From Gemmatimonadota bacterium (GTDB lineage Bacteria; Gemmatimonadota; Gemmatimonadetes; Gemmatimonadales; Gemmatimonadaceae): a stretch of DNA of 64,000 bases. The stretch covers positions 124,001 through 188,000 of the forward strand of contig JAQBPX010000019.1 of assembly GCA_028287305.1 (NCBI GenBank), given 5' to 3'. Positions 14,662 to 22,702 of the stretch are shown here, in pieces; position 1 is the stretch's first letter; every line of letters starts with the position of its first letter. A program made the position numbers and the translations under genes. The notes beneath the pieces are model-generated. The model did no database searches, was not told the DNA's origin, and saw only the letters and a program-made list of their open reading frames with translations.

Positions 14662-15174
14662 TTACTGGACCGTGATCGTGCCCTTCATGCCCATCGCAAG
14701 GTGCGGCGTGCAGTGGTAGTCGTACTTGCCGGCCTTCACGTTCGCGAAGGAGATCGTGTAGGTCTCGTTGGCGGCGAGCAGCATCTTGCCGCTGAGCTCC
14801 ATCATCTTCTCGGGCATGTTCGCGTCGATCTGGCCCTTTGCATCGGCCGGGAGCGTCGCGCCGTCGAACGCCACGTTGTGGGGTCCGCCGGAAACCATCG
14901 TCCAGCGAATCGCGTCGCCGGCCTTGATCGTGATGTCGGCCGGATCGAAGTGATAGCCCTTCGCATCCATGACCATCTTGACGTCGTGCGTGGCGCCGGT
15001 GGCCGGGGCCGCCGCAGCTGCACCAGTCGCGGGGGCCGTGGCCGGGGTCGTGGCCGTCGCTGCCGGGGTCGGGGCGGCGGTCGCCGCCGTGTCCGTGGTC
15101 GCAGCCTTTTCACCACCACCGCACGCGCCGAGAACGATCGCGCTGGCAGCGAGCACCAGTCCGTTGAAACGCAT
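14662..15174 (-). CDS. Plastocyanin-like copper lipoprotein
   Basis: A 170-residue lipoprotein: lipobox LGAC with acylated C18, an Ala/Thr/Pro-rich linker (about 20-62) and a cupredoxin domain. Type-1 copper ligands are visible: H99 (GGPHNVAF) and C155, H158 and M163 in YDYHCTPHLAMGMKG. It should sit at the outer face of a membrane or in the periplasm and carry electrons between respiratory complexes. The ATG at 15174 follows GGAGG at about 10-base spacing. It is a monocistronic unit with its own terminator; a CRP-type palindrome lies 71 bases upstream. Confidence 0.9.
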   Translation of the reverse strand: MRFNGLVLAASAIVLGACGGGEKAATTDTAATAAPTPAATATTPATAPATGAAAAAPATGATHDVKMVMDAKGYHFDPADITIKAGDAIRWTMVSGGPHNVAFDGATLPADAKGQIDANMPEKMMELSGKMLLAANETYTISFANVKAGKYDYHCTPHLAMGMKGTITVQ

Positions 15175-15244
15175 TGCTTGAAGCCTCCAGTATTGCCTAG
15201 GTCTGTTTGATGTACGCCCGCCCTTCGGGGATCCCTCCGGGCTT

Positions 15245-15260
15245 TGTGAAACTATTCACA
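15245..15260. promoter_or_regulatory. CRP/FNR-type palindromic site
   Basis: TGTGA-N6-TCACA, a perfect match to the CRP half-site pattern, in the gap between the divergent cupredoxin gene and his operon. It is 71 bases from the cupredoxin start and 63 bases before the his leader peptide. Which gene it controls is not decided by position. The rest of the 329-base gap holds the his leader and attenuator. Confidence 0.55.
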
Positions 15261-15322
15261 AGCCCCCACGTGCGCAACGCAGGGGGGTGCAAGTTGGAGG
15301 CCGTCCAAGGTACCTTTCGACC

Positions 15323-15397
15323 ATGGTCCTTCGCTCCGCCACCCATCACGTGCATCATCACCACGGCTCACGGGCCGGGGCGGTCGCGCACGTATAG
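15323..15397 (+). CDS. hisL: his operon leader peptide
   Basis: A 24-codon frame with ATG at 15323 and TAG at 15395-15397. It encodes seven histidines, six of them within residues 8-14 (HHVHHHH), followed by a short Gly/Ala/Arg tail with one more histidine. Histidine runs of this kind have one known role: stalling the ribosome when charged tRNA-His is scarce. It lies just ahead of a perfect intrinsic terminator and 106 bases ahead of hisG. The ribosome-binding site is weak (AAGG). Confidence 0.9.
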   Translation: MVLRSATHHVHHHHGSRAGAVAHV

Positions 15398-15435
15398 GGG
15401 TGGACTGAAAAGCTCCTGAACGTCCGATTTGCGCC

Positions 15436-15463
15436 GGGCCCGTCGACCAGACGGGCCCTTTTT
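15436..15463 (+). terminator. his operon attenuator
   Basis: A perfect 9-bp GC stem (GGGCCCGTC / GACGGGCCC, 5-base loop) followed by TTTTT, located before hisG. The segment CGGGCC at 15371-15376, in the leader-peptide tail, can pair with GGCCCG at 15437-15442 in the terminator's left arm. A ribosome stalled on the His codons would leave that pairing free and allow read-through; one reaching the stop codon would cover it. Confidence 0.88.
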
Positions 15464-15503
15464 CACGTCCTGGAGCGCTTTTCCCACTCAAGTCGTCGAT
15501 TTC

Positions 15504-16373
15504 ATGCTCAAGATCGCCATTCCAAACAAGGGTCGCCTGGCCGAGGAGGCCCGCGAGCTCTTTGCCGACGCGGGACTCGAGGTGAGGGCGCGAGGTGAGC
15601 GCGCGCTCACCGCCTCCCTGGGCGGGGAGTTCCAGGCCCTCTTCGTTCGTGCGCAGGACATCCCGGAATTCGTGGCTGACGGAGCCGCCGACGTCGGCAT
15701 CACCGGGTGGGACCTGATCGAGGAATCCGGCCGGCCGCTCGAGGTGCTGGCCGACCTTGGCTTCGGACGCTGCCACCTGGCGGTGGCGGCTCGCGAGGAC
15801 AGCGGCATTCGCTCCGTGGCGGACCTGCCGGAGGGCATTCGCGTCGCCACCGTCTTCCCGCGCATCGCGGCGCGCTTCTTCGCCGGGGCCGGTCGTACCG
15901 TGGAACTGGTGCCGATCTCCGGCGCCGCCGAGATCGCGCCGCACATCGGGATCGCGGACGTCATCGTGGACCTCGTCTCCACCGGCAGCACGCTGCGGGT
16001 GAATGGGCTGCGCGAGGTGGGTACGGTGCTCGAGTCCACCTGTCGCCTGGTGGTGGCGCGCGACGGCGTGGTCATGAACGATCCCGCGCGGCGCGTGGCC
16101 GCCGAGGAGCTCACCGCCGCGCTGACGTCGGTGCTGCGTGCGCGCGGCCAGCGCTACCTGATGGCCAACGTGCCGCGCGAGCGGCTGGCGGAGGTGAAGC
16201 GGGTGCTGCCCGGCATCGACGGCCCCACGGTGATCGACATCATGAACGGAGGATCGGTGGTGGCAGTGCACGCCGTCGTCGCGAGCGGGGCGGTCTATCG
16301 CACCATTGCCGACCTCAAGGCGCTTGGCGGAACGGGAATCCTCGTCACGCGCATCGAGCGGCTGATGCCATGA
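15504..16373 (+). CDS. hisG: ATP phosphoribosyltransferase, long form
   Basis: A 289-residue enzyme for the first step of histidine synthesis (ATP + PRPP). MLKIAIPNKGRL is the typical N-terminus; the phosphate-binding segment DLVSTGSTLRVNGL follows. The extra C-terminal domain of about 75 residues marks the long, hexameric form, which is feedback-inhibited by histidine directly and does not need HisZ; no hisZ is present. The first structural gene after the attenuator, it overlaps hisD as ATGA. No obvious Shine-Dalgarno lies close to the ATG. Confidence 0.95.
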   Translation: MLKIAIPNKGRLAEEARELFADAGLEVRARGERALTASLGGEFQALFVRAQDIPEFVADGAADVGITGWDLIEESGRPLEVLADLGFGRCHLAVAAREDSGIRSVADLPEGIRVATVFPRIAARFFAGAGRTVELVPISGAAEIAPHIGIADVIVDLVSTGSTLRVNGLREVGTVLESTCRLVVARDGVVMNDPARRVAAEELTAALTSVLRARGQRYLMANVPRERLAEVKRVLPGIDGPTVIDIMNGGSVVAVHAVVASGAVYRTIADLKALGGTGILVTRIERLMP

Positions 16374-17671
16374 CGGAGCCAGCCCTGCGTTTCACCGGCG
16401 CGCTGTCGCAGCTCTCGCCCTCGGCGCGACGCGCGCTGTTCGATCGATCGACGAGCGCCAACGTCGCGGTGCGCGTGGACACGGCCCGGGTGATCGAGGA
16501 GGTGCGCACCGGTGGCGACGAGGCGCTGCGGGCGCTCGCGTCGAAGTTCGACGGCGTGCGGCTCGATGAGCTGGAAGTCCCTCGCGCGCGCTGGCAGGCG
16601 GCGCTCGACGCCACGCCGGCCCCGTTGCGTCGCGCGCTCGAGCGCGCCCGCGACAACATCGCGTCGGTGCATCGCGCCTTCCTGCCGCAGGCTGCGGAGA
16701 CCTCGCCGGAAGACGGGATCGTGGTCGGGCGTCGTCCCGACCCGCTGGATCGCGTGGGTGTGTACGCGCCGGGGGGGCGTGCGTCGTATCCCAGCAGCGT
16801 GTTGATGGGCGCGGTGCCCGCTCGCGTGGCGGGCGTGCGCGAGGTGGTGGTCTGCTCGCCCCCGTCGGGCACGGGAGCGCCGTCACCGATCGTGCTGGCG
16901 GCGGCAGCGATCGCGGAGGCCGACCGCGTGTTCGCGATCGGCGGCGCGGGCGCGATTGCGGCAATGGCCTTCGGCACGGAGAGCGTGCCACGCGTGGATC
17001 GCATCGTCGGGCCGGGCAACGCCTACGTGGCGGAAGCCAAGCTGCAGCTCGCGGGCGCCGTGGCGATCGATGCGCCCGCGGGCCCGAGTGAGCTCCTCGT
17101 GATCGCCGATGCGTCATCGGACGCTCGCGTGATCGCGCGTGAGCTGGTGGCACAGGCGGAGCACGACCCGCTGGCGTGCTGCGTGGTGGTCGTGATCGGT
17201 GAAGAACTGGAGGTGGGCATCGTCGAGGCGATCGCCAGCGCCGCCGCCACGCAGCCGCGGCGCGAGATCATCGCGGAGGCGCTGCGCAATGCGGGCGGCG
17301 TGCTGTCGGCGCGAGATGAGGACGAGGCGCTGGCATTCGCGTGTGACTACGCGCCGGAGCACCTGCTCTTGCTCACGGGCGATGCCGACCGCCTGCGTTC
17401 TCGCGTGCGCAATGCTGGAACGATCTTCGTGGGAGCATCGAGCTCGGTGGCGTTCGGCGACTACATGACGGGCGCGAATCACGTGCTCCCCACCGGCGGC
17501 CTGGCGCGTTCCTACTCGGGGCTCTCCGTGCTCGACTTCGTGCGCTGGACCACGTGGCAGCGCGTGACGCCGGACGCGGCCGCGCGACTCGCTGCCGACG
17601 TCGCGGTGTTCGCGATGTCAGAGGGATTGGCGGGGCACGCCTCCGCCGCCTCGGCGTGGGGGACTCGATGA
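16370..17671 (+). CDS. hisD: Histidinol dehydrogenase
   Basis: A 433-residue zinc enzyme oxidising histidinol to histidine through the aldehyde in two NAD-dependent steps. Conserved landmarks are YAPGGRASYPSSVLM, the GPGNAYVAEAK loop, PAGPSELLVIAD, the AQAEHDPLA segment with the catalytic histidine, and GANHVLPTGG with a zinc-site histidine. ATG 16370 overlaps the hisG stop, and its own stop overlaps hisC. Confidence 0.95.
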   Translation: MTEPALRFTGALSQLSPSARRALFDRSTSANVAVRVDTARVIEEVRTGGDEALRALASKFDGVRLDELEVPRARWQAALDATPAPLRRALERARDNIASVHRAFLPQAAETSPEDGIVVGRRPDPLDRVGVYAPGGRASYPSSVLMGAVPARVAGVREVVVCSPPSGTGAPSPIVLAAAAIAEADRVFAIGGAGAIAAMAFGTESVPRVDRIVGPGNAYVAEAKLQLAGAVAIDAPAGPSELLVIADASSDARVIARELVAQAEHDPLACCVVVVIGEELEVGIVEAIASAAATQPRREIIAEALRNAGGVLSARDEDEALAFACDYAPEHLLLLTGDADRLRSRVRNAGTIFVGASSSVAFGDYMTGANHVLPTGGLARSYSGLSVLDFVRWTTWQRVTPDAAARLAADVAVFAMSEGLAGHASAASAWGTR

Positions 17672-18705
17672 CGCTCCGGGCGCGCGATGGGGTCGCGGAG
17701 TTGCCGCTCTACTCGGGTGGTGACGCGTGCGCCGTGGACCTGAGCGACAACACCAACCTGTGGGGAGCACCGCCGGGCACGTCGCGCGCATTCGCTGGCG
17801 CAGCGGCGCGAGTGGCGCGCTATCCGAGCGCCGGTGCGGCGGAGCTGTGCGCGGAGGTCGCGCGCTATGCTGGCGTGACGCCACCGATGGTGGTCGCGGG
17901 CTGCGGATCCGATGACGTGATCGACTCGGCGTTCCGGGCGTTCGGCACGCCCGGCTCCTGCGTCGCGTACGTCGAGCCCACGTTCAGCATGGTGCCAGTG
18001 TTGGCGCGGACCAACGGGCTGCGTCCCGTTGCCGTGGCCCACGACGACGACGCCGAGCGACTGCTCGCGAGCCTGCGCGCCAGCGATCCGTCTATCGTGT
18101 ACCTCTGCTCCCCCAACAATCCCACCGGCTCCGCGCTGCCTCGCGCATTCGTGGAGCGCGTGCTCGAATCGATCGACGCACTCGTGATCCTGGACGAGGC
18201 GTACGGGGAATTCACGACGTCGTTCGGCTTCGAGCTGGTGCGCACCTCCGATCGCCTGCTCGTGACCCGCACCTTCTCGAAGGCGTTCGGGCTCGCGGGG
18301 CTGCGCGTGGGTTATGGAGTGGGCGCCGCGTCCGTCGCAGGCACCGTGGCTCGCGCGCGTGGCCCTTACAAGGTGGGCGGAGTCGCCGAGCAGGTGGCGC
18401 TTGCAGCGATGCGCGACGACGTGAGCTGGATGCGCGAGCATGCGAGGCTGGCGATCGAGGAGCGCGAGTGGCTCGCGGCGCAGCTGGTGAATCGCGGCTT
18501 CGAGACGATGCCGAGCGAGGCGAACTTCGTGCTGCTGCCACTCGCCGGCGCGCCTGGCGTGGCGACGGCGCTCCGGTCATGCGGAATCGGCGTGAGGGCG
18601 TTCAGCGCGCTGCCGGGCATCGGCGACGCACTGCGCATCACCGCCGGGCCGCGCCCGATGCTGGAGGCGCTGCTCTCCGCATTCGACAAGGTGGTGCGCC
18701 CGTGA
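17668..18705 (+). CDS. hisC: Histidinol-phosphate aminotransferase
   Basis: A 345-residue fold-type-I PLP aminotransferase. LCSPNNPTG, ILDEAYGEF and the PLP lysine in TFSKAFGLAGLRVGY are all present. It starts with ATG overlapping the hisD stop by four bases and ends overlapping the GTG of hisH. A role in aromatic amino-acid transamination is possible in principle, but the operon position makes histidine synthesis the clear assignment. Confidence 0.94.
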   Translation: MTLRARDGVAELPLYSGGDACAVDLSDNTNLWGAPPGTSRAFAGAAARVARYPSAGAAELCAEVARYAGVTPPMVVAGCGSDDVIDSAFRAFGTPGSCVAYVEPTFSMVPVLARTNGLRPVAVAHDDDAERLLASLRASDPSIVYLCSPNNPTGSALPRAFVERVLESIDALVILDEAYGEFTTSFGFELVRTSDRLLVTRTFSKAFGLAGLRVGYGVGAASVAGTVARARGPYKVGGVAEQVALAAMRDDVSWMREHARLAIEEREWLAAQLVNRGFETMPSEANFVLLPLAGAPGVATALRSCGIGVRAFSALPGIGDALRITAGPRPMLEALLSAFDKVVRP

Positions 18706-19301
18706 GGCTGACGATCTTCGATTACGGCGCGGGCAACCTGCACTCGCTCGCCAAGGCGCTCGTGATGCCGGGCGTCGAGCTCGCCATCGAGACCAATCCA
18801 TCACGGGCGGTGGAGGAGACGGATGCGCTCATCCTCCCCGGCGTGGGCGCCTTCGGCCTTGCCGCCGAGCGCCTGGCGCGTGGCCGCGACGTGATGCTCG
18901 CCGCGCTCCAGGGCGGGTTGCCATGCCTCGGCATCTGCCTCGGCATGCAGCTGCTGTTCGACGGGAGCGAGGAGGGCGCCGGCACGGGCATCGGACTGGT
19001 GCCGGGGCGCGTGCGGCGGCTACGCGCCGAGCGGGTTCCGCAGATGGGCTGGAATTCGCTGGAGGGAGTGCGGGGCGAGCCGCTGCTCGCGCGCGCGGGG
19101 CTCGACACTGTCTATTACGCCAATGGATTCGTCGGCGAGCCGCTCGACAGCTCGGTCGTCACGGCATGGAGCACGCACGAGGAGGACCGGTTTCCGGCGG
19201 CGGTGCGCATCGGGAGCGTGGTCGGCGTGCAGTTCCATCCCGAGAAGAGCTCGGCCCCCGGCGTCCGCTTCATGCATGAATTCCTGAAGGAGCTCTTATG
19301 A
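18702..19301 (+). CDS. hisH: Imidazole glycerol phosphate synthase, glutaminase subunit
   Basis: A 199-residue class-I glutamine amidotransferase. The catalytic triad is visible: C79 in LGICLGMQ, and H179 and E181 in VQFHPEKS. It feeds ammonia through a channel to HisF. It starts with GTG at 18702, overlapping the hisC stop as GTGA. HisF is encoded three genes downstream, so partners are made from one transcript. Confidence 0.95.
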   Translation: MRLTIFDYGAGNLHSLAKALVMPGVELAIETNPSRAVEETDALILPGVGAFGLAAERLARGRDVMLAALQGGLPCLGICLGMQLLFDGSEEGAGTGIGLVPGRVRRLRAERVPQMGWNSLEGVRGEPLLARAGLDTVYYANGFVGEPLDSSVVTAWSTHEEDRFPAAVRIGSVVGVQFHPEKSSAPGVRFMHEFLKELL

Positions 19302-20011
19302 TCGCGATTCCCGCGGTGGACCTGCGCGAGGGCGCCTGCGTCCAGCTGGTAGGCGGAGACCTGGCGCAGGAGCGCATTCGGCTCGACGATCCCGTGGAGG
19401 TGGCGCGGGGCTGGGAACGCGAGGGATTTTCCATGCTGCACGTGGTGGACCTCGACGCAGCGCTCGGCCGCGGCGACAACGCGCGCGTCGTGCGCGAGCT
19501 GATCCGCAACGGCGACCTGCCGATCCAGCTCGGCGGCGGCATCCGGTCCAGCGACCAGGTGGAGGAGTGGCTCGAGGAGGGCGTGACGCGAATCGTCGTC
19601 GGCACGCGCGCGCTCGAGGACCCGGACTGGCTGGCCGAGATCGCGACGGCGCATCCGGGGTCGATCGTGCTGGCCGCCGATGTGCGTGAGCGTCGCGTGG
19701 TCACGCGTGGGTGGGTGCACACGCTGCCCGTGGACATCCTCGACCTCGTGCGCGACCTCGAGGGGCTGCCGCTGGCGGCCATCCTGGTTACGGCCGTGCA
19801 CATGGAAGGGAAGATGGAAGGCACCGACCTCACCCTGATCGAGGACGTGTGCGATGCCTCGCCGGTCCCGGTCATCGCCTCGGGCGGGATCGGTGGCGTG
19901 CAGGACCTCCGGGCACTCGAGCATCGTGGCGCCTCGGCCGCGGTGATCGGCATGGCCCTCTACACCGGCGCCATCGACGCGCGCGCCGTCGCGCAGGAAT
20001 TTTCCGAATGA
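19298..20011 (+). CDS. hisA: ProFAR isomerase
   Basis: A 237-residue (beta/alpha)8 barrel carrying out the Amadori isomerisation of ProFAR to PRFAR. The catalytic aspartate of strand 1 (IPAVDLREG), the phosphate-binding IQLGGGIRS and the C-terminal VIASGGIGG fit HisA and distinguish it from HisF. The start overlaps the hisH stop; the end overlaps hisB. Confidence 0.94.
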   Translation: MIAIPAVDLREGACVQLVGGDLAQERIRLDDPVEVARGWEREGFSMLHVVDLDAALGRGDNARVVRELIRNGDLPIQLGGGIRSSDQVEEWLEEGVTRIVVGTRALEDPDWLAEIATAHPGSIVLAADVRERRVVTRGWVHTLPVDILDLVRDLEGLPLAAILVTAVHMEGKMEGTDLTLIEDVCDASPVPVIASGGIGGVQDLRALEHRGASAAVIGMALYTGAIDARAVAQEFSE

Positions 20012-20547
20012 CCCGACTGATCCGCGAGACGCGCGAGACGCGCGTGCGACTGGAGCTGGTGAGCGACGCCGCCGTAACGCGCATCGACACCTCCATCCCA
20101 TTTCTAGACCACATGCTCACCACCCTCTCGCGCTATGCAGGCGTGGGAATCGTGATCGAGGCGCAGGGTGACCTCCGTCATCACCTGCTGGAGGACGTGG
20201 CGATCACGCTCGGCGCGGCGATCGGTGGGCACGCGCCCGAGGCCTGCGCGCGCTTCGGTGATCGCACCGTGCCCATGGATGACGCGCTGGTGCACTGCGC
20301 GCTGGATCTCGGCGGCCGCGTGTGGTACGAGGGGCCGCTCCCGAGTGACCTGTACGATCACTTCTTCCGCTCGGTCGCGGAGAACGCGAAGGCCACGCTG
20401 CACCTGCGCGTGCTGCGCGGCCGCGACCGGCATCACGTGGTGGAGGCGGCGTTCAAGGCATTCGGCCTCGCGTTGCGCGACGCACTCGTGGTCGGCGATG
20501 GCGTGTTCAGCACGAAGGGCGCGGTGATGCTTCAGGAGGAGTCATAG
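20008..20547 (+). CDS. hisB: Imidazoleglycerol-phosphate dehydratase
   Basis: A 179-residue monofunctional IGPD with manganese-binding histidine motifs: FLDHML near the start, DLRHHLLEDVAITLG, and later DHFF and RHHVVEAAFKA. It lacks the N-terminal phosphatase domain of enterobacterial HisB, so a separate histidinol-phosphate phosphatase is required; the IMPase-type gene downstream fills that role. Its place between hisA and hisF is a less common order. Confidence 0.95.
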   Translation: MTRLIRETRETRVRLELVSDAAVTRIDTSIPFLDHMLTTLSRYAGVGIVIEAQGDLRHHLLEDVAITLGAAIGGHAPEACARFGDRTVPMDDALVHCALDLGGRVWYEGPLPSDLYDHFFRSVAENAKATLHLRVLRGRDRHHVVEAAFKAFGLALRDALVVGDGVFSTKGAVMLQEES

Positions 20548-20550
20548 CAC

Positions 20551-21315
20551 ATGCTCACGCGACGGCTGGTGGTGTGCCTGGACGTGAAGGGCGGGCGCGT
20601 GGTGAAGGGCGTGCAGTTCGAGGCATTGCGCGACGTAGGCGACCCCGTGGCCCTCGCCACTCACTACGAGGCCGAGGGAGCGGACGAGGTGACCTTCCTC
20701 GACATCTCGGCGACCTCCGAGGAGCGCGCGACCGTGTTCACCCTGCTCGAGCGCACGGCGGAGCGGCTGTTCGTGCCGCTGACGCTCGGTGGCGGCGTGC
20801 GGTCGGTGGACGACGTGGGACGCGCACTGCGCGCGGGAGCCGACAAGGTGAGCATCAACTCGGCTGCCGTTGCCGACCCGGCGCTGCTCACGCGCGCCGC
20901 CGAGCGATTCGGGGCGCAATGCGTGGTGGCTAGTATCGATGCGCGTCGCGACGGTACGGGGTGGCGCGTCTTCACTCGCGGAGGGCGCGCGCCCACGGGG
21001 CTCGATGCGGTCGAGTGGGCCGCGGAATGCGCGCGGCGTGGCGCGGGAGAAATCCTCCTCACGAGCATCGATCGCGACGGCGCGCGCAACGGCTATGACC
21101 TGGAGCTCACGCGTGCGGTATCGGCGCGCGTCTCCGTTCCGGTGGTCGCGTCGGGTGGCGCGGGCTCGCCGGAGCACGTGCGAAGCGTGCTGGTGGACGG
21201 TGGCGCCGACGCGGCGCTCGTCGCGGGAATCCTGCACGACGGAGTGACCACGGTGCGCGCGATCAAGCAGCTGCTGGCCGATGAGAGTCTTCCTGTGCGC
21301 CAGGTGGCGGCATGA
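20551..21315 (+). CDS. hisF: Imidazole glycerol phosphate synthase, cyclase subunit
   Basis: A 254-residue barrel subunit converting PRFAR and ammonia to IGP and AICAR. The catalytic acids are in CLDVKGGRVVKG (strand 1) and SIDRDGARNGYD (strand 5); phosphate sites LTLGGGVRS and VASGGAGS match the family. A 3-base gap follows hisB, and the stop overlaps the phosphatase start (ATGA). Confidence 0.95.
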   Translation: MLTRRLVVCLDVKGGRVVKGVQFEALRDVGDPVALATHYEAEGADEVTFLDISATSEERATVFTLLERTAERLFVPLTLGGGVRSVDDVGRALRAGADKVSINSAAVADPALLTRAAERFGAQCVVASIDARRDGTGWRVFTRGGRAPTGLDAVEWAAECARRGAGEILLTSIDRDGARNGYDLELTRAVSARVSVPVVASGGAGSPEHVRSVLVDGGADAALVAGILHDGVTTVRAIKQLLADESLPVRQVAA

Positions 21316-22094
21316 GCAGCGACGCGTTGACGGGAGGATTGCTCCTCGAGGCCATGAGCACTGTGGCGAAGATCGCGGGCGATGCGGCGCTCCGGCACTT
21401 TCGCAGTGCCCTTGCGGTGGAGGTGAAGGGAGATGGCTCTCCAGTCACCCTCGCCGATCGTGAGGCCGAGCGTGCAGTGCGCGACTGGGTCGAGTCGAAA
21501 TTTCCGGAGGATGGCGTGCTGGGTGAGGAGTTCGGCGAAGATCGGGCCGGCGCGAAGCGCCGCTGGATCATCGACCCGATCGACGGCACGAAGACCTTCC
21601 TGAAGGGAGTGCCCCTCTGGGGATCGCTGATCGCGCTCTGCGAAGGGAACGAGGTGCTCGCGGGCGCCGCATACTATCCCGCGGTCGGCGAGCTGGTAGT
21701 GGCCGCGCCGGGCGAGGGTGCGTGGTGGAATGGCGCACGTTGCTCGGTGTCCACGGTGGCCGACATGGACGAGGCCACGGTGTGCACCACCGACGAGCGC
21801 TTCGAGGCGCATCCGCCGCGCCGTGAGGGTTGGGAGTCGCTGGCGGATCACGCGCAGATGAGCCGCAGCTGGGGAGATTGTTACGGCTACCTGCTCGTGG
21901 CCACGGGGCGCGCCGAGGTGATGGTGGATCCCGTGCTCTCGCCCTGGGACGCGGCCGCGCTGCTGCCGGTGATCGAGGAAGCAGGCGGTCGGTTCACCGA
22001 CTGGCACGGCAACCGGACGGCATTCGGCGGCAGCGCCATCGCGACCAATGCCGCACTGGCAACGCGCGCGCGCGAGCTGCTCGGGAGCCGCTGA
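21312..22094 (+). CDS. hisN: Histidinol-phosphatase, inositol-monophosphatase family
   Basis: A 260-residue Mg-dependent phosphatase with the family signatures [31 protein letters not shown] and the C-terminal [17 protein letters not shown]. Inositol-monophosphatase-like enzymes replace the HisB or HisK phosphatases in many bacteria as HisN. Its location inside the his operon, coupled on both sides, is strong support for dephosphorylating histidinol phosphate. Confidence 0.9.
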
Positions 22095-22702
22095 TGCTGG
22101 ACGTGTCGCAGGTGAACTTCGAGAAGGGCGGCGGACTCGCGACGGTCGTGGCGCAGGATGCCCGCACTGGCGCCGTGCTCATGGTGGCACACACCGACCG
22201 TGAGGCGCTCGAGCGCACCATCTCCAGTGGAGAGATGCACTATCGCTCGCGGTCGCGCGGGCCCTGGCACAAGGGCGCGACCAGCGGCAACACGCAGCGG
22301 GTTGTGTCGCTGTCGCTCGACTGCGACGGCGACGCGATCCTCGCTCGCGTCGAGCCGAGAGGACCGGCCTGCCACACGGGCAGCGTGTCCTGCTTCGGTC
22401 CGGACGCACTGGACGTGGAGGAGCTCTCGCGCCTGGCGGCGACGATCGACGCACGCGCCGCGGAGCAGGGCAGTGACGGATACACCAGGAAGCTGCTGGC
22501 CGACCGCAACCTGCGCCTCAAGAAGCTTGGCGAGGAGACGGCCGAGCTCGTGGTGGCGCTATCCGATCGCGACACCGCGCGCGCCGCCGAAGAGGGCGCG
22601 GACCTGTTCTATCACGTGCTCGTCGCGCTGCGCGCCGAGGGCGTGACCCTTGGCGACGTGCGCGCGGTGCTGGCGGCTAGAAGCGCGAAAGCAGGTCGGT
22701 AG
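22094..22702 (+). CDS. hisIE: Bifunctional phosphoribosyl-AMP cyclohydrolase / ATP pyrophosphohydrolase
   Basis: A 202-residue fusion catalysing steps 2 and 3. The N-terminal cyclohydrolase half (about 1-110) has the [15 protein letters not shown] segment and the zinc cysteine motif [12 protein letters not shown]. The C-terminal pyrophosphatase half (about 118-202) has the acidic helix [14 protein letters not shown]. The start overlaps the hisN stop by one base (TGATG). It is the last gene of the operon; its 3' end overlaps the convergent peptidase gene by 26 bases. Confidence 0.95.

Follow-up and report, generated by a model that had tools for sequence, protein, structure and literature searches.

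What controls the histidine operon of a bacterium of the Gemmatimonadaceae? The stretch of DNA analysed here, 64,000 nucleotides long and referred to as the window, belongs to a genome of 4.37 Mb in total and carries a short, histidine-rich open reading frame ahead of the operon. Attenuation of his transcription is textbook knowledge for enterobacteria, and a first interpretation made from the letters of the window (the sequence-only reading) had proposed a his attenuator at this site. This proposal is supported by the comparisons presented here, as both the His-rich leader and the stems are conserved in relatives.

The leader and its hairpins in the window

The operon is headed by hisG, encoding ATP phosphoribosyltransferase (15504-16373, plus strand; TIGR00070, E 7e-62), and continues on the same strand with hisD, hisC, hisH, hisA, hisB, hisF, hisN and hisIE (16373-22702), assigned by NCBIfam matches. 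For hisC and hisB the scores lie under the model cut-offs, yet these are the top matches. The result is a nine-gene operon, hisGDCHABF-hisN-hisIE, with neighbouring genes that overlap or almost touch.

Upstream of hisG, the leader ORF at 15323-15397 (plus strand) translates to MVLRSATHHVHHHHGSRAGAVAHV followed by a stop codon, with histidines at codons 8, 9, 11-14 and 23. The translation bears out the earlier description of 24 codons with seven histidines, six of which fall within seven residues. These six make up the control region His-His-Val-His-His-His-His (15344-15364, plus strand), whose HHHxHHxH pattern is kept in relatives. The six-His pattern occurs once in the 64-kb window, against 0.01 expected from dinucleotide shuffles, and among the window's ORFs of 7-60 codons a single one has at least five His in eight residues.

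The leader is followed, on the same strand, by an intrinsic terminator at 15436-15463 with the sequence GGGCCCGTC-gacca-GACGGGCCC-TTTTT. Its 5' arm (arm 3, GGGCCCGTC, 15436-15444) and its 3' arm (arm 4, GACGGGCCC, 15450-15458) form nine perfect pairs, eight of them counted as G-C, and the T-run occupies 15459-15463; the perfect 9-bp hairpin with five Ts ahead of hisG is thus found as described before. Two further arms precede it on the plus strand. Arm 1 (GGCT, 15365-15368) sits immediately 3' of the last His codon in the run and pairs with 15373-15376 in a conserved helix, as seen in the fold of 15365-15464. Arm 2 (ACGGGCC, 15370-15376) would be either sequestered by arm 1 or engaged as antiterminator with arm 3. 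The sequence-only reading had placed an antiterminator between the leader tail and the terminator arm; this pairing is present, although its length is 7 bp (ACGGGCC at 15370-15376 with GGCCCGT at 15437-15443) and not the reported 6 bp. Furthermore, the antiterminator also competes with the sequestering 1:2 hairpin, which had been overlooked.

As long as arm 1 is available, 15365-15464 is predicted to fold into the 1:2 hairpin plus the terminator (z -3.2). When the first four bases are hidden, as they would be under a ribosome at the last His codons, 15369-15448 is predicted to fold as the antiterminator (z -2.8), including the 7-bp competing pairing, so that masking arm 1 replaces the terminator by the antiterminator in the prediction. 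The entire region 15300-15470, in comparison with the stretch after the His codons, folds unremarkably (z -1.4 vs -3.2). The 1:2 core of the window strain has just 4 bp, including one G-U. In the predicted fold of the window sequence only, the linker (15377-15435, plus strand) forms a stem by which arms 2 and 3 are drawn close to each other; RNAalifold gave no support for conservation of this stem. The duplex energy between leader and terminator in this GC-rich window sequence is no better than that of shuffles (p = 0.16), and the case therefore rests on conservation.

Conservation across the phylum

Among 148 genomes of the same family, hisG was detected in 107, and the upstream region (at most 600 nt) was examined for 90 of these 107 loci. 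In 87 of the 90, hisG is preceded by a short ORF that packs four or more His into eight residues, commonly with the pattern HHHxHHxHGPTGRG, and the stems are kept as well; the conservation of His codons and stems in close relatives, which had been suggested as a check, is thereby observed. The three exceptions comprise a contig that ends 77 nt upstream, a leader containing undetermined bases, and G030 (L077), which has no leader before hisG and in which the operon may begin with another gene. His-rich leaders are also present at the loci of families f2, f4, f5, f7 and f8 of the phylum. No His leader precedes hisG in the f10 genomes or in several others whose HisG is divergent, and there, too, hisG may not head the operon.

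A covariance model places the window site as the top match in its own genome (E 2.9e-15, the site being part of the training set). A motif scan over one genome per species, covering 84,980 species, returned 32 matches, 31 of which belong to a His-rich leader before hisG; of the 32, which lie in named genomes, 29 bear Gemmatimonadota names. A match in Isoptericola was rejected as chance, being without His codons and without hisG. One matching record, L182, is titled Candidatus Kuenenia stuttgartiensis and carries a Gemmatimonadaceae his attenuator with hisG; it is apparently a metagenome-assembled genome with a wrong label. Another, L186, is titled only 'bacterium'.

A terminator-like hairpin followed by a T-run lies 3' of the leader at 120 of 125 loci, and in this 125-locus set its 5' arm begins 22-53 nt past the leader stop. 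Since T-run hairpins are common, the hairpin could be a plain terminator, constitutive or controlled by a protein, and the His-rich ORF an untranslated coincidence. We regard this as highly improbable: the His codons, their spacing to arm 2 and the complementarity of arms 2 and 3 are kept across families, the divergent upstream neighbour leaves no upstream transcript to terminate, and the same ORF rule applied as a control upstream of trpE and ilvB gave a His-rich leader in 0 of 39 regions. The same T-runs bear on a hairpin that, under the same leader and His codons, would sequester the hisG start and control translation. Some attenuators act in this manner (PMC9413887), and a clear Shine-Dalgarno sequence is mostly missing at hisG (present at 9 of 150), but the T-runs make such control extremely improbable, and so does the position of the hairpin end, which lies 45 nt upstream of the hisG start in the window and varies widely in its distance from that start at other loci.

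Transcription attenuation of the his operon, the reading that we favour, does not extend to a general habit of the family, as searches ahead of trpE and ilvB turned up no Trp or branched-chain leader; none of the 30 trpE loci searched had a convincing Trp leader.

Two variations on the layout were observed. Nine loci (L144, L148, L149, L151, L152, L156, L157, L158 and L163) have a divergent HisG (~32-38% identical, PKGRM start) and yet have His leaders; their terminators are mostly of a different, GCCGGC-type family, which suggests a second attenuator class or an operon swap. At L082 and L086, tandem terminator-like copies with GACGGGCTTTTT...TTTTAGACCACTCATCTACT units occupy the final 100 nt before hisG, between leader and hisG.

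Compensatory changes and the proposed switch

Two alignments were used, A1 with 74 loci and A2 with the 13 loci of family f5. Three helices are conserved: the 1:2 hairpin just 3' of the His codons, the 2:3 antiterminator and the 3:4 terminator. In helix 3:4, 99.8% of the cells are paired and 14 cells are changed on both sides; the four pairs with double changes were matched by 0 of 500 shuffles. Helix 1:2, which lies inside the leader ORF, is 94.2% paired in A1 and 100% paired in A2, where a single pair appears as C-G, G-C, U-A, G-U and A-U and the covariation score was reached by 0 of 500 shuffles. RNAalifold recovers both helices unprompted and lengthens 1:2 into the His codons.

Helix 2:3 is 90.5% paired, compared with 24-47% upon sliding, and its pair-type count was equalled in just 1 of 500 shuffles. 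Double changes occur at two loci (2 of 74 sequences), with GACAGGTC against GGCCTGTC at L106 and GGCGGGCC against GGCCCGCC at L043. Four related loci have U-A in place of U-G/C-G, and the 13 loci of A2 hold no compensatory change for this helix. Compensatory changes are strong for 3:4 and 1:2 and few and thin for 2:3, a scarcity that is due to the near-invariance of arm 2. Because relatedness inflates the counts, the double changes should be read as supporting evidence, not as proof. The duplex energy of leader tail and terminator arm, with a native mean of -19.7 against -16.8 kcal/mol for shuffled sequences, reached p<=0.05 in only 23 of 120 loci; as duplex energy is a weak test in GC-rich RNA, position-specific pairing and compensatory changes were used.

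The leader tail distinguishes between RNA and peptide. Its CGGGYC core is read as TGR or similar at 64 loci, in a second frame (RA/RV) at 8 loci, which include the window strain, and in a third (GSR or similar) at 5. The His run stays in frame, while the tail nucleotides persist and the tail amino acids change. Because the core occurs in all three frames, selection acts on the RNA and not on the peptide tail; a constant tail RNA with changing amino acids is what an attenuator would predict and a functional peptide tail would not. In 55 of 77 loci, 7 nt separate the last His codon from the core, a spacing that would suit a ribosome footprint over arm 1 that spares arm 2.

These data also weigh on the idea that the conserved product is a small His-rich protein with a function of its own, such as metal binding. 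Metals bind His runs, and many relatives have a blue-copper (plastocyanin-like) gene as the divergent neighbour. Such a protein is nevertheless very unlikely, given that the tail is read in three frames with its RNA unchanged, that the residues between the start codon and the His run vary freely among relatives, and that an intrinsic terminator stands between the ORF and hisG nearly everywhere. Alongside attenuation, the leader peptide may have a secondary role in trans, by analogy with peTrpL of S. meliloti.

In the window, the plastocyanin-like gene lies at 14662-15174 on the minus strand, divergent from the his leader. Between the two, at 15244-15261, lies the perfect palindrome TTGTGAA-ACTA-TTCACAA, which is kept in ~43 loci, many of them sharing the divergent plastocyanin-like gene, and fits the Rex operator consensus.

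As a whole, we consider it highly probable that a ribosome-mediated transcription attenuator controls the his operon. From the leader, the arms, their conservation, the compensatory changes and the operon, all of them features of the sequences, we infer the transcription start, the stalling, the termination efficiency, the read-through and the response to histidine as follows. Transcription would start, probably, at or near the leader AUG, and a ribosome would load on the leaderless RNA and trail the polymerase. When charged His-tRNA is scarce, the ribosome would slow at the His codons with its leading edge over arm 1 (15365-15368). With arm 1 covered, arm 2 (15370-15376) could base-pair with arm 3 (15437-15443), which would block the terminator, and hisGDCHABF-N-IE would be transcribed. 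When histidine is plentiful, the ribosome would reach the stop codon (15395-15397), arm 2 would refold with arm 1 behind it, and arm 3 would then pair with arm 4, ending transcription near 15463. Since the 1:2 and 3:4 hairpins would form without translation as well, termination would be the default.

Predicted leaderless initiation and related leaders

A -10-like hexamer, TACCTT (15311-15316, plus strand), lies 6 nt before the leader ATG, at a position that matches the conserved spacing of the relatives. The window strain has no recognisable -35, which in relatives is TTGAC 17 nt upstream, and a promoter scan found none in this strain; with the -10 in place and the -35 unrecognisable, this promoter may be weak or activator-dependent. 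Across the 125 loci, 97 have a TTGAC-N17-TANNNT promoter by rule (TTGAC exact in 96, spacer 17 in 77), compared with 5.6% of shuffled windows that contain such a promoter. The distance from the -10 to the first in-frame start codon is 5-10 nt in 96 of the 97, and none of the 97 has a Shine-Dalgarno-like 5-mer ahead of the leader start. By itself, the missing 5-mer means little, because hisG rarely has one either. Bacterial transcription typically starts ~6-8 nt past the -10. Taken together with the promoter spacing, this would put the leader AUG at the RNA 5' end or no more than a few bases from it, and we predict a leaderless transcript that begins at the start codon.

The enterobacterial his leader has a six-segment layout, in contrast to the four arms (1:2, 2:3, 3:4) of the Gemmatimonadota RNA. 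Rfam RF00514 (His_leader) gave no match at the gathering cut-off in the window, nor in 15200-15520 with E allowed up to 10, and relaxed Rfam thresholds returned chance-level matches only. A His-specific T-box riboswitch is vanishingly improbable: his genes are under T-box control in some Firmicutes and Actinobacteria (PMC9413887), but no T-box or other Rfam family scored above threshold in the window, no T-box sequence with a His specifier was seen there, and a T-box does not need a run of His codons. The attenuator shares with those of E. coli and Salmonella the seven-His leader peptide and the selection, through ribosome stalling, of antiterminator or terminator before hisG (PMC9413887), and differs in its phylum, in an RNA that RF00514 does not match and in being predicted leaderless.

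The sequence-only reading had called his attenuation outside the Proteobacteria notable, should the host be confirmed. The host is of the Gemmatimonadaceae; novelty as such does not hold, since his attenuators had already been predicted in Firmicutes, namely in the B. cereus group, Peptostreptococcaceae and Erysipelotrichales, and before hisS/hisZ in bacilli (PMC9413887, PMC2965389). By description, these resemble the present case in having a His leader peptide, a terminator and an antiterminator before his genes outside the Proteobacteria. Neither article mentions Gemmatimonadota, and no relevant report on leader peptides, attenuation or leaderless transcripts in Gemmatimonadetes or Gemmatimonas was found in the open-access literature, although subscription journals may contain one.

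For leaderless initiation, the closest likeness is trpL of Sinorhizobium meliloti, whose leader peptide is translated from an RNA that starts at its own ATG (PMC7298713). The -10 spacing of 5-10 nt and the missing Shine-Dalgarno sequence are features of this type, whereas trpL concerns Trp in an alphaproteobacterium and has a measured 5' end, which is predicted in Gemmatimonadota. The mycobacterial polycysteine leaderless short ORFs, as summarised in PMC9031893 (citing Canestrari 2020), likewise sense an amino acid with a run of one codon, but they concern Cys in Actinobacteria and are described there as regulating translation of downstream genes. Because a leader and a switchable terminator are conserved across the phylum, Gemmatimonadota very probably sense histidine shortage through a stalling ribosome in the fashion of E. 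coli, with a differently built RNA. This would extend ribosome-mediated his attenuation to Gemmatimonadota, where it is conserved over several families, and we found no earlier report of it. An RNA that the Rfam his-leader model does not recognise and that is probably leaderless fits an independent origin. How many times his attenuation has arisen, and whether leaderless initiation favours attenuation, become comparative questions.

Searching the source genome with the his model also revealed two other leaders. The second-best match (E 6e-4) is a Tyr-run leader, MRLTALCQSYYYATPHTGRGWRRSQR, with the same tail (ACGGGCCGCGG) and a 12-bp terminator, located at L197:1505-1665 (G000:C9, ~67,273-67,433) directly before the gene for phenylalanine 4-monooxygenase (NF008877, E 1e-87). 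Ahead of this gene, Tyr-rich leaders with a GGYCCGT terminator arm occur in most relatives that have the closer type of the enzyme, and in ~15 relatives such leaders have TTGAC-N17 promoters, mostly 5-9 nt before the ATG; the four examined relatives with the more distant type have no Tyr-rich leader. A tyrosine attenuator of phenylalanine hydroxylase is possible on this pattern and, if confirmed, would be one for which our literature search found no precedent. The third match (E 0.006) is a Cys/Met-run leader, MIARTLNCMCMCHHWSLC..., with a terminator at L198:1481-1677 (G000:C24, ~150,193-150,389), before a gene pair encoding an ATP-grasp (RimK-like) protein and an SfnG-like monooxygenase. Similar Cys/Met-rich ORFs, some of the MCCCCMCLMC- or MCMCRMC-type, were found in ~8 of 30 relatives.

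Both leaders were picked up with a model derived from his leaders, so a shared origin of the three is possible. We lean slightly towards a Gemmatimonadota family of leaderless attenuators with a similar tail cassette (ACGGGYC ... GGYCCGT terminator arm), arisen by duplication or convergence, that would serve His at hisG, Tyr at phenylalanine 4-monooxygenase and possibly Cys/Met at a sulfur operon. Upstream of the ATP-grasp gene (L235-L261), many relatives without a Cys/Met leader have a conserved tiny ORF, MV(F/I)CRLLPPRKTTS, near a GCCCGGGC hairpin.
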